Of a stretch of 64,000 nt of DNA, positions 22,326 through 27,304 are shown one piece after another. The stretch comes from Microbacterium rhizomatis (GTDB taxonomy: Bacteria > Actinomycetota > Actinomycetes > Actinomycetales > Microbacteriaceae). A program made the translations under genes and the position numbers. Each line of letters opens with the position of its first letter. Position 1 is the stretch's first letter. The notes beneath the pieces are model-generated. The model did no database searches, was not told the DNA's origin, and saw only the letters and a program-made list of their open reading frames with translations. The stretch spans positions 434,001 to 498,000 of the forward strand of contig NZ_VYSA01000001.1 in NCBI RefSeq assembly GCF_008710745.1. The letters run 5' to 3'.

Positions 22326-23738
22326 GTGACCGCAGGCACGAAGACCACCACCCGCTCCCGCAGCACCGCAGACATCGAGACCGCTGAGGTCGTCGACGAG
22401 GTGACGCCGACGAAGACGCCGGCTGCTGCGGCCAAGAAGGCATCGGCCAAGACCGGTGCCGCGAAGGCTACGACCGGCAAGGCGGCGACCGCGAAGAGCG
22501 CTCCCGCCAAGGCCGGCGCCGCGAAGGCGAAGGCAGGCGCGAAGGGCGCGGCCGAAGACGCCGAAGAGATCGACGACGACATCGAGCTCGAAGATGTCGA
22601 GGTCGAAGAGCTCGACACCGAGGACGAGACGCCGCCCACCCCGGCCGCGCGGGGCCGCAAGGCTGCCGAGCCCGAGGCGTCCGACGCGGAGGCGTCCGAC
22701 GAGGACGACGACGATGACGACGAGAAGAAGCCGACGTTCTCCGAACCGCTTCCGACCGGCGCGATCGTCATCTCCTCGAGCGACGACGAGGACGTACCCG
22801 TCTACTCGACGCAGATCACCGGCGCCACGGCAGACCCGGTCAAGGACTATCTGAAGCAGATCGGCAAGGTTCCGCTGCTGAACGCGGCCGAAGAGGTCGA
22901 GCTCGCGATGCGCATCGAGGCGGGCCTCTTCGCCGAAGAGAAGCTGTCGCACATGTCCGCCGCCGAGAAGACGAGTCAGATCGGTCTCGATCTCCAGTGG
23001 GTCGCTCGTGACGGTCAGCGTGCCAAGTCCCACCTGCTCGGGGCCAACCTCCGCCTGGTCGTCTCTCTGGCCAAGCGCTACACGGGTCGCGGCATGCAGT
23101 TCCTCGACCTCATCCAGGAGGGCAACCTCGGCCTCATCCGTGCGGTCGAGAAGTTCGACTACACCAAGGGCTTCAAGTTCTCGACGTATGCGACGTGGTG
23201 GATCCGGCAGGCGATCACGCGCGCCATGGCCGACCAGGCCCGTACGATCCGCATCCCCGTCCACATGGTCGAGGTCATCAACAAGCTTGCCCGTGTGCAG
23301 CGCCAGATGCTCCAGGATCTCGGCCGTGAGCCCACTCCGGAAGAGCTCAGTCGCGAACTCGACATGACGCCGGAGAAGGTCATCGAGGTGCAGAAGTATG
23401 GTCGTGAGCCGATCTCTCTGCACACGCCTCTCGGCGAGGACGGCGACAGCGAGTTCGGCGACCTGATCGAAGACACCGAGGCGGTGGTCCCCGCCGACGC
23501 GGTGGGCTTCACGATGCTGCAGCGCCAGCTCGAGTCGCTGCTGGACTCGCTCTCCGAGCGCGAGGCCGGTGTGATCCGGATGCGCTTCGGACTCGGCGAC
23601 GGCCAGCCCAAGACCCTCGACCAGATCGGCGACACGTTCGGGGTCACCCGCGAGCGGATCCGTCAGATCGAGTCGAAGACGATGGCCAAGCTGCGGCATC
23701 CCTCCCGCTCGCAGTCCCTCCGGGACTACCTCGAGTGA
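22326..23738 (+). CDS. sigA: Housekeeping RNA polymerase sigma factor (group 1)
   Basis: Primary sigma-70 factor that directs RNA polymerase to -10/-35 promoters. The 470 residues begin with a low-complexity Lys/Ala then Asp/Glu-rich extension of about 130 residues, as in actinobacterial HrdB/SigA. Region 1.2 follows ([16 protein letters not shown] near 175), then region 2 ([22 protein letters not shown], the DNA-melting and -10 recognition helix), region 3, and region 4 ([20 protein letters not shown], the -35 helix-turn-helix). The start is GTG at 22326, with GAAAGG upstream. Its stop codon shares a base with the next gene's ATG. Confidence 0.96.
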
Positions 23739-24433
23739 TGGCCGAGGCCAACGCGGGCAAAGCTCTCACGATCGACGTGGACGGCACGTCTTTCTCGCGC
23801 ATCCCGATCCGTACGCGGGTCGTGCTGCACGGGGATGAGCTCGATCCGTTCATCTCGGAGTACGCGCAGGGAGTCGTCCAGCAGGGCGACATCCTCTTCG
23901 TGACCGAGAAGATCGTGGCGATCACGCAGGGCCGCTCCTACCCGATCGAATCCATCCAGCCGCGCCGGCTTGCACGGTTTCTGTCGCGATTCGTCGTGCG
24001 CACGCCCCACGGCATCGGACTCGGAATGCCCGAGACGATGGAGATGGCCCTCCGCGAATGCGGCACGCCTCGCATCCTTCTCGCCGCCGCCGTGTCGGCC
24101 GTGACGAAGCTCTTCGGCCGTAAGGGCGACTTCTATCGGGTCGCCGGCGACAAGGCACGCGCGATCGACGGCCCCACGGAGGGCACGATGCCTCCCTACG
24201 ACCGTTCGGTCGTACTGGGCCCGGATCGTCCCCGCGAAGTGGCCGCGCACCTCAAGAGCCTGCTGACGGTTCCGGCGGAGGTCGCGGTCGTCGACATCAA
24301 CGACCTCGGCGGAAACATCCTCGGCTCGACGCTCGACCGGGCCGGGGAGCAGCGTCTCGTCCGTATCCTGGGCGACAACCCGCTCGGCCAGGGTCGGGAA
24401 TCGACGCCGCTTGGGATCGTCCGCCCGGTCTAG
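23738..24433 (+). CDS. F420 gamma-glutamyl ligase-like (CofE-like) protein
   Basis: A 231-residue protein resembling the CofE domain, whose known member adds L-glutamate to coenzyme F420-0 with GTP. Features of the fold here are ISEYAQGVVQQGDILFVTEKIVAITQG near residue 32, RTPHGIGLGMPETMEMAL near 88, and a VVDINDLGGNILG segment near 187. No other F420 gene is in the window, so a role with a different acceptor is possible. The ATG shares its A with the sigA stop (TGATG), implying co-transcription and coupled translation with the sigma factor. It converges with the ATP-grasp gene. Confidence 0.7.
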   Translation: MAEANAGKALTIDVDGTSFSRIPIRTRVVLHGDELDPFISEYAQGVVQQGDILFVTEKIVAITQGRSYPIESIQPRRLARFLSRFVVRTPHGIGLGMPETMEMALRECGTPRILLAAAVSAVTKLFGRKGDFYRVAGDKARAIDGPTEGTMPPYDRSVVLGPDRPREVAAHLKSLLTVPAEVAVVDINDLGGNILGSTLDRAGEQRLVRILGDNPLGQGRESTPLGIVRPV

Positions 24434-24461: not shown

Positions 24462-25484
24462 TCAGAAGCCGATGGCCTCGCGGTAGCGGGGCTTGTGGCC
24501 CGTCCGGATCCCGGTGACGCTCGGCTTGTTCTCGTACACTCCGGCACCCCAGTTGCCCTCTACGAGCACGGGGCCGGTCGGGGTCACGACGATGTCCCAG
24601 CCGACGTACTGGACCTGCGGGACGACCCGGGCGACCCGATCGACGAACGCCTTCACGTCGTCGATCATCGGCAGCTGGAAGTCACCGATCACGAAGCCGG
24701 AATCCGGGTGGGTGCGGTGGACATGACCGTGTGAGTCGTAACCGGCGCCGACCGCGTGGCCGTCGTCGTCCAGCATCGTGTAGAAGCCGCCGAATGTCAT
24801 CTGGTCGCTCACGGCGCCCCGGCCGAACTTCTGGGCCATCGCGAGGATGTGCGTGCGCTCCCCATCGAAGAATGCCGTGACTCGGGTCGTGTTGACTGTG
24901 CCAGGGCAGACGGCGGCGAGATCGGGATGCTGGACGATGACCTCTTCGACGAGCAGCTCGCCGCGCGAAAGCAGGTCGGAGTGGAATCGCGACCAGTCCT
25001 CGATCTCCTCCGCGTGATAGCGGTGCACGCCCGTTCCGGCTTGGCCGACCGGCTCCTTCGTCACGATCGTGCCCTGACGTTGGGTGAACTCGCGCAGCGC
25101 CTCGGCGTTGCCCTCGGCGACGACCATCCATTCGCGCTTGAGGAAGTCGGAGAACGCGTGATCGAACTCGACCTTGTCTTGGAACAGGTGGCGGAAATCG
25201 GGGTGGTCGTACTTCTGCGACAGCTGGTTCGAGACCGGGTGGGTCATGTAGGTCGCGCGCTCGTCGCGGTTCAGGATCGCGAAGTCGTAGTCGATGTAGT
25301 CCTGGAACCCGACGTTGCGCACGCCCGCCTGCCACAGCATGTCGACGACGACCGCCGGCATCCACTTGCCGTGGTCGGCGGAAGCTTCGCGCGCGCGCTC
25401 GAGGACCGATCCGACGTTGATGCGTCGTGCGCGGTCGGCGAGGTAGTGCAGGCGAGGCGCGAGGCCGAGGCCGTTCTGAGGCAT
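24462..25484 (-). CDS. ATP-grasp ligase-like protein (sugar-transfer-associated type)
   Basis: A 340-residue protein of the ATP-grasp superfamily, closest by eye to the family called sugar-transfer-associated ATP-grasp. Motifs include TIVTKEPVGQAGTGVHRYH (nucleotide-binding Lys and Gly-rich loop) near residue 140, ELLVEEVIVQHPDL near 180, and the metal-ligand region TGPVLVEGNWGAGVYE near 310. Enzymes of this fold join a carboxylate to an amine or another nucleophile through an acyl phosphate; the substrates here are unknown. ATG at 25482-25484 has CCGGAG just upstream. It is divergent from the racemase pair, with only 45 bp between. Confidence 0.75.
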   Translation of the reverse strand: MPQNGLGLAPRLHYLADRARRINVGSVLERAREASADHGKWMPAVVVDMLWQAGVRNVGFQDYIDYDFAILNRDERATYMTHPVSNQLSQKYDHPDFRHLFQDKVEFDHAFSDFLKREWMVVAEGNAEALREFTQRQGTIVTKEPVGQAGTGVHRYHAEEIEDWSRFHSDLLSRGELLVEEVIVQHPDLAAVCPGTVNTTRVTAFFDGERTHILAMAQKFGRGAVSDQMTFGGFYTMLDDDGHAVGAGYDSHGHVHRTHPDSGFVIGDFQLPMIDDVKAFVDRVARVVPQVQYVGWDIVVTPTGPVLVEGNWGAGVYENKPSVTGIRTGHKPRYREAIGF

Positions 25485-25516: not shown

Positions 25517-25523
25517 TAGTCTA
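25517..25523. promoter_or_regulatory. Overlapping divergent -10 boxes
   Basis: TAGTCTA reads as TAGTCT on the plus strand (7 nt before the GTG at 25530, a leaderless start) and TAGACT on the minus strand (toward the ATP-grasp gene). The two promoters would exclude each other or be regulated together. Confidence 0.5.
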
Positions 25524-25529
25524 GATGGC

Positions 25530-26258
25530 GTGATCGGGGCGGAACGCGGGCAGCAGACGCCCGGCGACGGCATCGGCCCGCGGAGCGCGCCGGTGGCTCG
25601 CATCGCGCTGGACGTTCTCGCGCGCAACGCCGCCGCGCTCGGGGGCCCCGATTCCGTGGCCGATCTGCGTGCGGACGCGTGGGGGCACGGAGTGGCACAT
25701 GCCGCGCCCGTGATCCTGCGAGCCGGGGTGGATTCCGTCATCGTCGACCCTGAGGATCGCGCTGCGGTGCTCGTCTCGGGTGTCGACTCGGCCAGGGTCG
25801 TGACGGCTGGCCGCCCCACCGTCGACCCCGCGGCGCTCTTAGGACTCCCCGGTGGCGGAACGACACCTGTCATGCGCCTGTACGGCTCTGTGCTCGGCGT
25901 CAAGCCGCTGCTGGCGGGCGAGGGCGTGTCCTACGGGTACGCGTATCGCGCCCCCGTAGACACGCATGTGGCGCTCGTGACGGGCGGGTACGCGCAGGGC
26001 ATCGTGCGCGAGCTGGGCGGGCGGGTGCGTGTCGTGATCGAAGGATCGCAGCATCCCATCGTCGGGCGGATCGCGATGGACGCCTGCGTCATCGACATCG
26101 GCGACAGTGAGATCGCTCGTGGCGCGACCGTGTGGTTCTTCGGAGACACGAGCACGGGCGCGCCCGCACTCAGCGATTGGACGGCCGCGGTGGGCTGGAC
26201 CGCTGCCGAACTCGTCACGTCCGTCGGCCGACTCGCGGTCAGGGAGCACACCTCGTGA
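25530..26258 (+). CDS. Alanine racemase C-terminal-domain protein with remnant barrel (subunit A of a split pair)
   Basis: A 242-residue protein. Residues 22-95 match the start of the alanine racemase barrel, but the PLP-lysine motif has become LRADAWGHG (R47 instead of Lys, W51 instead of Tyr). About 130 barrel residues are then missing. From residue 113 the C-terminal beta domain is well kept: GEGVSYGYAYRAP with Y135 (equivalent to the catalytic tyrosine, Tyr265 of the Geobacillus stearothermophilus enzyme), GGYAQG with Y154, and GRIAMDAC with M183. It cannot bind PLP covalently alone. The GTG start is supported by a TAGTCT box 7 nt upstream. Its stop overlaps the next gene by four bases (GTGA). 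Confidence 0.8.
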   Translation: MIGAERGQQTPGDGIGPRSAPVARIALDVLARNAAALGGPDSVADLRADAWGHGVAHAAPVILRAGVDSVIVDPEDRAAVLVSGVDSARVVTAGRPTVDPAALLGLPGGGTTPVMRLYGSVLGVKPLLAGEGVSYGYAYRAPVDTHVALVTGGYAQGIVRELGGRVRVVIEGSQHPIVGRIAMDACVIDIGDSEIARGATVWFFGDTSTGAPALSDWTAAVGWTAAELVTSVGRLAVREHTS

Positions 26259-27304
26259 CGGCGAGCCTCGAGGTGGATCTCGACGCGTTCGGCGCCAATC
26301 TCTCCCGTATCCAGTCCGTCGCCGACTCCGCCACCGTGATGCTCGTGGTCAAGGACGACGCGTACGGGCATGGCCTCGCACCCATCGTGCGGCGCGCATG
26401 GACGGAGGGGATCCGATGGATCGGTGCGTTCGACGTGCGCACCGGACTCGCCATCCGAGCACTCCTCGGTGCGGATGCCCGCATCTTCATCTGGATCTCG
26501 GCATCGCCCGCCGACGCTCTGGCTGCGGTGGCCGCGGACTTGGACATCGGGGTGGGCGACGCGCAGGTGCTCGAGGAGGTCGCCGCCGCGGCCGCGACCC
26601 TGGATGCGCGCGCCCGCGTCCACCTCAAGATCGACACCGGCCTGCACCGCAACGGTGTGCGACCCGAGTCATGGCCCGCCTTCACCGCACGGGCTCGCAT
26701 CCTCGAGGAGCGGGGATCCCTCGACGTCGTCGGGATCTGGAGCCATATCGCGGAGGCTTCGGACGAAGAGGACGACGCCGCTCGAGAAGTGTTCGATCAA
26801 GCCATCGCCGTCGCGCGCCGCACCGGCCTGGAGCCCCGGGTGCGCCATCTCGCTGCCAGCGCAGCCTCGTTCGCCCGGCCCGAGTTCCGCTACGACCTCG
26901 TGCGCGTGGGCGCCTTCGCCTACGGCATCGCACCGGCCGGAGGGCCCTCGGCGGACGAGCTCGGCATCCGTCCCATCGCCACGCTCCGCGCGGACGTGAC
27001 GACGGTGCACGGTGAGCTCGTGCACATCGGGATCGGCTCGCTCAACGGAGTGCCGTCGACGCTCGCCGGTCGGGTCGACGTGGCGACGCCGGAAGGGGCC
27101 CGTCGTGTCGTGGCGATCCACGAACTGCACAGCGTGATCGAGGGATGGCCGAGCGCCGGAGTCGGCGACACCGTGGCCGTGTACGGTCCGGCGGACACGG
27201 CCCCGTACTCTGCGACGGCTCTGGCTGAGACGATCGGCACGATCGGCGAGCAGATCGCCGTCCGTCTCAGTCCGGGAATCGCCCGCGTGTATCGCGGACG
27301 GTGA
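26255..27304 (+). CDS. Alanine racemase-like PLP barrel protein lacking the catalytic tyrosine domain (subunit B)
   Basis: A 349-residue fold-type III PLP protein. The barrel is complete: VVKDDAYGHG with PLP lysine K33 and Y37, LKIDTGLHRNG with R132, GIWSHIAEAS with H164, ASAAS near 203, and VRVGAFAYG with R217. After residue 245 the C-terminal domain no longer has the SYG, GYADG or MD motifs of alanine racemase; it reads GIGSLNGVPSTLAGRVDV instead. The catalytic tyrosine is therefore missing, while subunit A, encoded upstream with a 4-bp overlap, supplies exactly that motif. The natural substrate (alanine, or another amino acid of the peptidoglycan) cannot be deduced. The start is GTG at 26255. 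Confidence 0.82.
   Translation: MTASLEVDLDAFGANLSRIQSVADSATVMLVVKDDAYGHGLAPIVRRAWTEGIRWIGAFDVRTGLAIRALLGADARIFIWISASPADALAAVAADLDIGVGDAQVLEEVAAAAATLDARARVHLKIDTGLHRNGVRPESWPAFTARARILEERGSLDVVGIWSHIAEASDEEDDAAREVFDQAIAVARRTGLEPRVRHLAASAASFARPEFRYDLVRVGAFAYGIAPAGGPSADELGIRPIATLRADVTTVHGELVHIGIGSLNGVPSTLAGRVDVATPEGARRVVAIHELHSVIEGWPSAGVGDTVAVYGPADTAPYSATALAETIGTIGEQIAVRLSPGIARVYRGR

Follow-up and report, generated by a model that had tools for sequence, protein, structure and literature searches.

Two overlapping genes of Microbacterium rhizomatis as a putative heterodimeric wall racemase with one composite active site

Two overlapping genes of Microbacterium rhizomatis, here termed A and B, divide the catalytic residues of an alanine racemase (Alr) between them, and we infer with high confidence that their products form a heterodimeric racemase with one composite site, both the complex and its activity being deduced from sequence. 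A single active site probably requires both proteins together, and the amino acid that they produce is probably the mirror-image one that cross-links the unusual cell wall of these bacteria, which is likewise an inference. Taken as a whole, a heterodimeric racemase that also serves a diamino-acid wall function is the best explanation we can offer, and we consider it a likely one. Alanine racemase is the textbook homodimer with a shared site; in this pair, a complementation experiment seems to have been carried out by evolution, with two genes and reciprocal loss of both catalytic bases. The support demonstrated in the ORFs and their surroundings comprises these reciprocal losses, their fixation, the pairing of the genes, natural fusions, an acidic gate residue and neighbouring ligase genes.

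Complementary residues in two overlapping genes

All positions refer to the window, that is, the whole stretch of 64,000 nucleotides that was analysed. Gene A (25530..26258, forward strand) starts with GTG and encodes 242 amino acids, comprising a barrel remnant and the Alr C-terminal domain; it lacks the lysine and is the putative tyrosine donor. Gene B (26255..27304, forward strand), also with a GTG start, encodes 349 amino acids, with a complete barrel that bears the lysine and a shortened C-terminal domain without the tyrosine. The start of B lies within the stop of A, in the GTGA overlap (26255..26258, forward strand) that an earlier note on this DNA had described. A and B are separate open reading frames (ORFs) in the window, unlike the single-polypeptide Alr, which carries both halves.

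Each protein has a single Pfam match, Ala_racemase_C at residues 114-235 of A and Ala_racemase_N at residues 7-227 of B. Against the NCBIfam model TIGR00492 (alr), A scored 89.2 bits and B 142.4 bits, both below the 168-bit cut-off. Alignment to the canonical Alr profile placed Arg47 of A (25668..25670, forward strand) at the PLP-lysine position and Tyr, Tyr and Met at the positions of Y265, Y284 and M312, with Tyr135 (25932..25934, forward strand) as the equivalent of the catalytic Tyr265; the middle of the barrel is missing from A and the C-terminal domain is kept. In B, Lys, Tyr, Arg, His and Arg occupy the positions of K39, Y43, R136, H166 and R219, corresponding to a PLP site of Lys33 (26351..26353, forward strand), Tyr37, Arg132, His164 and Arg217, and no residue aligned to Y265. 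These alignments bear out what the earlier note had read from the letters, namely that A has Arg in place of the PLP lysine and has lost part of the barrel, and that B keeps the barrel residues without the tyrosine motif; its numbering (Y135 in A; K33, R132, H164 and R217 in B) was also correct.

We used AF2 to generate predicted structures for A and B singly, with alignments composed of proteins from the window and from the species-titled loci described below. The model of B (pLDDT 95.4) matched Alr from S. coelicolor (5fag) over 349 residues (Z 43.8, 1.5 Å). The model of A (pLDDT 89.5, with low confidence at residues 1-12 and 155-157) matched Alr from M. tuberculosis (6scz) over 220 residues (Z 21.5, 2.1 Å), and spans residues 12 to 382 of the 6scz chain while skipping the middle of the barrel. 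By these predictions, the Alr fold is present in both A and B.

We propose that A and B are obligate partners in a heterodimeric racemase of fold type III, which would have a single, composite active site. B would contribute K33 as the PLP lysine, Y37, R132, H164 and R217 as ligands of the phosphate and pyridine, and E332 as the acidic gate, while A would supply the opposite catalytic base Tyr135, together with Met183 and Tyr154, across the dimer interface. A would then do what the second subunit does in the homodimer of a conventional alanine racemase, and the mirror site, composed of the barrel of A and the C-terminal domain of B, would be dead.

The pair resembles Alr/DadX (TIGR00492; PF01168 + PF00842) in its fold, in the PLP ligands (B), in the Tyr and Met of the second subunit (A) and, if the inferred complex forms, in an active site common to two subunits across the dimer interface. 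In contrast to Alr/DadX, it comprises two genes that each encode half the catalytic residues of one composite site, the gate Tyr is replaced by Glu or Asp in B, and both proteins fall below the TIGR00492 cut-off. Trypanosomal AdoMetDC and its prozyme are likewise a pair of paralogues that forms an active heterodimer; in the part of the source available, the paralogue is called catalytically dead (PMC6221367), whereas A and B each have a different half of one site. A literature search that did not extend to most subscription journals turned up no paper describing an alanine racemase that is split or heterodimeric.

Recurrence and evolution of the pair within the family

Protein searches of 299 genomes of the family returned adjacent A and B genes in many genera among the matches listed. 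For species-titled genomes, the best 80 loci were listed; 72 of these are titled Microbacterium, and the B identity ranges from 45 to 65%. We read 140 loci, consisting of these 80 and a further 60 regions chosen from high-scoring rows of other genomes. A few genomes occur in both parts of this set, and all of its loci were selected through B. As the B-profile score alone cannot separate B from intact tandem second copies, the two were told apart by their catalytic residues.

Exactly one A and one B were found in 121 of the 140 loci, which answers the earlier note's suggestion that relatives be searched for co-occurrence of the two genes. Another 12 loci contain 22 intact full-length Alr ORFs and neither A nor B, L118 contains an unread stretch, and B alone was found only in L135 and L207, both at contig ends. 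L230 (G225:C9) carries two A and two B, and its two A-B pairs lie together with two ATP-grasp genes within 14.5 kb.

Tyr265 and Met312 were present in all 124 A-type ORFs (124/124 each). At the PLP-lysine position, these ORFs have Arg (77), Ala (17), Thr (5), Asp (5), Glu (4) or other residues (6), while the remaining 10 are unaligned there: 3 consist of the C domain only, 1 is cut by a contig end, 1 has an unread stretch and 5 have Arg, Ala or Glu by eye. Among the B-type ORFs, K39, Y43, R136, H166 and R219 were each found in 125/125 and Tyr265 in 0/125. No readable A has the lysine and no B has the tyrosine, a pattern that, together with the fusions described below, supports the heterodimer put forward in the earlier note, the complex itself being inferred. 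Both residue sets were read in at least 26 of the 85 genera sampled. The 4-base overlap between A and B was found in 75 of 79 loci (species-titled set, L135 left out).

Two other candidate explanations were rejected. Pseudogene decay or chance is ruled out by a pattern fixed in 124 A-type and 125 B-type ORFs, and a frameshift artefact by the separate ORFs, whose 4-base overlap is kept in 75/79 loci.

On the basis of match counts only, about 149 of 179 Microbacterium genomes have A and about 30 are without it. The earlier note had held that its reading would be refuted by genomes in which either gene occurs alone; in the 140 loci, lone B was restricted to the two contig ends, and in the full-cover A rows listed, which were checked by eye, B adjoins each A, two of the rows running into a contig end once B has begun. 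The search for occurrence was limited to ranks up to order; the order was represented by 198 genomes, of which at least 14 belong to the family itself, and no A-type match outside the family stood out among them. Four rows from these 198 genomes have near-full A cover. One of them (G310) is truncated at its start and shows Arg, His, Arg, Tyr and Met at their positions, and the other three (G335, G426 and G445) are open frames of 402-492 aa in which the catalytic residues are unread. An A-B pair with a B of 56% identity was also found in a sequence titled Planococcus sp. APC 4015 (L109, JASDDH010000015.1), which is probably mislabelled or a contamination.

A was found in several states. Six A ORFs (L179, L182, L188, L190, L220 and L235) are aligned over their full length but lack the lysine, and three (L203, L206 and L213) consist of the C domain only; as far as these forms can tell, the barrel of A is dispensable. 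L199, L209 and L226 each encode A and B as a fusion in a single open frame, in which Lys is missing from the A half and Tyr from the B half. Two Microbacterium loci, L300 (G569:C40) and L301 (G646:C117), have a C-domain-only A fused in frame to B; the A part carries Tyr, and the B part has Lys but no Tyr. The A parts of these two ORFs are the smallest Tyr donor seen. The natural fusions, from both groups of loci, and the overlap in 75/79 loci argue for a putatively obligate A-B pair.

Tandem intact full-length Alr genes occur in other genera (L208, L214, L215, L217, L223-L225, L227, L228 and L229). The two adjacent genes of L229 (genus g32) are full-length and intact, and the trees put one with A and the other with B. 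In the trees, the intact second copies lie inside the B clade, and an extra pair from genus g78 is placed away from the remaining A-B pairs. Few forks are resolved in the C-domain tree, which rests on 124 columns, and the barrel tree includes long Lys-less A rows; we relied on the trees only for the B-clade placement of the second copies and the separateness of the g78 extra pair. The acidic gate is present in 10/10 of the intact tandem second copies of other genera, which suggests that a specialised racemase probably came first and was split later. This refines the duplication followed by reciprocal loss that the earlier note had proposed: the reciprocal losses stand, while specialisation probably preceded them. 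The intact tandem pair, the Lys-less full barrel, the lone C domain and the fusion are all states still alive in one family.

Alternatively, B alone might act as a homodimer without the Tyr base, catalysing another PLP reaction or working as a one-base enzyme, with A as a regulatory or scaffolding pseudo-subunit. B does keep the PLP ligands and models as a complete Alr-like protomer. However, A retains exactly what B has lost, with Tyr and Met in 124/124 ORFs, and an A without its barrel (L203, L206, L213, L300 and L301) is nothing but a Tyr-bearing C domain. A regulator would have no need of the catalytic Tyr, and we regard this alternative as improbable. That A and B are decaying, functionless copies could be argued from the absence, in each protein, of residues essential in Alr, but this idea is contradicted by invariant catalytic residues in at least 26 genera, by the 4-base coupling in 75/79 loci and by conserved synteny, and we give it next to no credence. 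A heterodimer with one composite site remains the reading we prefer.

Neighbouring ligase genes

The usual gene order in Microbacterium is sigA - [ligase genes] - A - B - DUF7455 - parE - parC, with other orders in some genera. In the window, the gene divergent from A (24462..25484, reverse strand) was assigned by Pfam to the ATP-grasp family PF14397, and we propose that it encodes a ligase acting in the same pathway; no solved relative of this protein was found by sequence. A putative -10 element, TAGTCT (25517..25522, forward strand), lies 7 nt before the GTG of A, and TAGTCTA was found in 12 of 14 hand-picked relatives inspected. A leaderless A-B transcript from this element is plausible, transcription being inferred.

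In the stretches read around the 140 loci, the ligase neighbour is ATP-grasp in 74 and murT-gatD in 43, with both in 0 and neither in 23. The last group is composed of the 12 intact-Alr loci, 1 second pair of g78 and 10 A-B loci, several of which are short stretches. A CofE-like gene (PF01996, F420 gamma-glutamyl ligase family) lies between sigA and the ATP-grasp gene in the window (23735-24433) and is present in 69/74 ATP-grasp loci and 0/43 murT-gatD loci; its product is possibly a further ligase of the same pathway. Six loci (L092, L095, L103, L105, L110 and L134) have an ATP-grasp gene directly upstream on the strand of A plus one on the other strand, and L115 has an ATP-grasp gene on the strand of A.

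Across the 179 Microbacterium genomes, MurT_C is present in 34 and ATP-grasp is absent at E 1e-10 in 34, with 33 genomes common to both; the 14 genomes that the ATP-grasp search does not list were identified by subtraction. Two genomes are exceptions: G510 combines MurT with a weak match to ATP-grasp (8.6e-13), and G526, which is 88% complete, has neither. Microbacterium genomes without A mostly keep ATP-grasp in divergent form, at 54-58% identity or as two at about 42%. Judged by this persistence in most genomes without A, the ATP-grasp family is not specific to D-amino acids, a point against our explanation, and the divergent forms are what one would expect of a bridge with an L-amino acid.

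In group-B walls, the bridge is attached at the alpha-carboxyl of the D-isoglutamate of the stem. This is the group that MurT/GatD amidates, and the S. aureus GatD variants C94G and C94S abolished amidation, according to the part of the source available (PMC6113224). In the 43 loci, murT-gatD is located beside A-B (for example, L083:3279-5347 and L177:4295-6588), directly upstream of it in the Microbacterium loci read. Aligned to S. aureus GatD, the neighbour GatD has lost Cys94 in 43/43 cases (31 G, 10 A, 1 S and 1 T) and His189 in 30/43. The neighbour of A-B in these 43 loci is related to a lipid II amidotransferase that acts on the alpha-carboxyl of D-Glu2, but differs from it in lacking the catalytic Cys in 43/43; given this absence, its use of glutamine appears unlikely. 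We propose that the adjacent ATP-grasp ligase or glutaminase-dead MurT/GatD would couple a diamino acid to the D-Glu2 alpha-carboxyl.

Gate residue, substrate and wall chemistry

The position of the substrate-gate Tyr354 (T-I-x-Y-E) was set by alignment of B to solved Alr. Of the 125 B-type ORFs, 124 have an acidic residue (Glu or Asp) there, and in the B of the window the position corresponds to Glu332 (TIGEQ; 27248..27250, forward strand). The sole exception is B' of the second pair of g78, in which Tyr is kept (TINYE) in the one read (L236). Among the 22 intact Alr ORFs, Asp or Glu was found in 10, which are tandem second copies, and Tyr in the other 12; the acidic gate is probably older than the split. 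In Alr from T. tengcongensis, the residue at the gate position blocks larger side chains and controls substrate choice, and charged residues there lowered Ala activity, as far as the accessible portion of that study goes (PMC4517790).

We infer that the side chain best suited to an acidic gate is a cationic one. We think it reasonably likely that A-B is a diamino-acid racemase for the group-B peptidoglycan bridge, with substrate and activity both inferred. Its substrate would be the diamino acid of the group-B cross-bridge, giving D-ornithine in many Microbacterium and D-Dab or others elsewhere. The earlier note had allowed for a substrate other than alanine; the residue at the gate and the ligase genes next to A-B now lend that suggestion independent support, specifically for a diamino acid, although the substrate remains an inference.

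The earlier note had also suggested looking for a separate canonical alr. In the genome of this M. rhizomatis strain (4.2 Mb, 9 contigs), one gene, on contig C2, has both Pfam domains and all eight residues intact. The situation is different in the five genomes of g78 (G140, G278, G192, G077 and G238; L236, L272-L276), each with an estimated completeness of 99%. These have only two full Alr-type Alr_N barrels: one is the usual B, and the other, B', belongs to a second pair with the order B'-A', in which B' has Lys and no Tyr and A' has Thr in place of Lys and keeps Tyr. No intact Alr was found in the five genomes; a third, weaker Alr_N match in each (50-66 bits) had no Alr-profile match at E 1e-5. 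None of 6 genomes (these five and that of M. rhizomatis) gave a D-amino acid transaminase match above the cut-off, and weaker matches to this class exist (33-64 bits). With no intact Alr and no above-cut-off transaminase, g78 must have a functioning split pair unless it obtains D-Ala in another way, which cannot be excluded.

Microbacterium walls are described as containing D-Orn, L-Lys or Dab, with D-Orn in M. galbinum and M. sufflavum and L-Lys in M. enclense (PMC10757982), and L-Orn has been reported for M. albopurpureum (PMC10978784), both sources being available to us only in part. A-B is carried by M. galbinum (L126) and M. sufflavum (L115 and L143). It is also carried by M. enclense ZYFD042 (L092), a different strain from that of the L-Lys report, which counts against a correlation with D-diamino acids. 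The comparison of pair and wall type covers three species only, two with documented D-Orn and one with reported L-Lys in another strain.

Two other substrates have to be weighed. A-B could be a heterodimeric alanine racemase that supplements the housekeeping Alr, in which case only its architecture would be unusual. The best solved relatives of A and B are alanine racemases, and one split pair of g78 must make D-Ala unless another source exists. However, M. rhizomatis has an intact alr, the gate is Glu or Asp in 124/125 B, charged gates lowered Ala activity in the T. tengcongensis enzyme (a source available in part), the sole B with a gate Tyr belongs to the extra pair of g78, and the neighbouring genes are candidates for wall-bridge ligases, all of which leaves an alanine substrate unlikely. 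To much the same degree, we doubt that the pair makes the D form of a non-diamino acid, such as D-Ser, D-Glu or a hydroxylated residue of group-B walls. The substrate has not been shown, and solved Alr relatives of other or broad specificity include BsrV, Bar and lysine racemase; nevertheless, the acidic gate is inferred to suit a cationic side chain best, and D-Orn, D-Lys and D-Dab are documented as wall residues in the family, in sources of which only parts were available. The lysine, broad-specificity and histidine racemases (4dza, 4dyj, BsrV 4beu and 5zl6) resemble A-B in their Alr fold and have non-alanine substrates, but appear as single proteins, whereas A-B is a two-gene pair.

Retaining the diamino-acid racemase, we lean slightly towards a joint reading for Microbacteriaceae. 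According to this, A-B makes the D-diamino acid of the group-B wall, and ATP-grasp or a glutaminase-less MurT/GatD, being interchangeable, couples it to D-Glu2, with MurT/GatD taking the diamino acid instead of ammonia. Under the same reading, the ancestral enzyme of homodimer type would persist in the genera whose tandem copies are intact, and in g78 the housekeeping alanine racemase would itself have been split in the same way a second time.

New here are the Glu or Asp gate of B and the location of A-B beside either ATP-grasp or a Cys-less murT-gatD, never both in the stretches read. We found no paper on the supply of D-Orn or D-Dab for group-B walls or on MurT/GatD in group-B peptidoglycan, most subscription journals being outside the search. 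If confirmed, these findings would mean that the annotation 'alanine racemase' is misleading for A-B, and that group-B actinobacteria have a wall racemase with an unusual gate residue. The loci provide candidate genes for how group-B walls obtain and attach their D-diamino acid.
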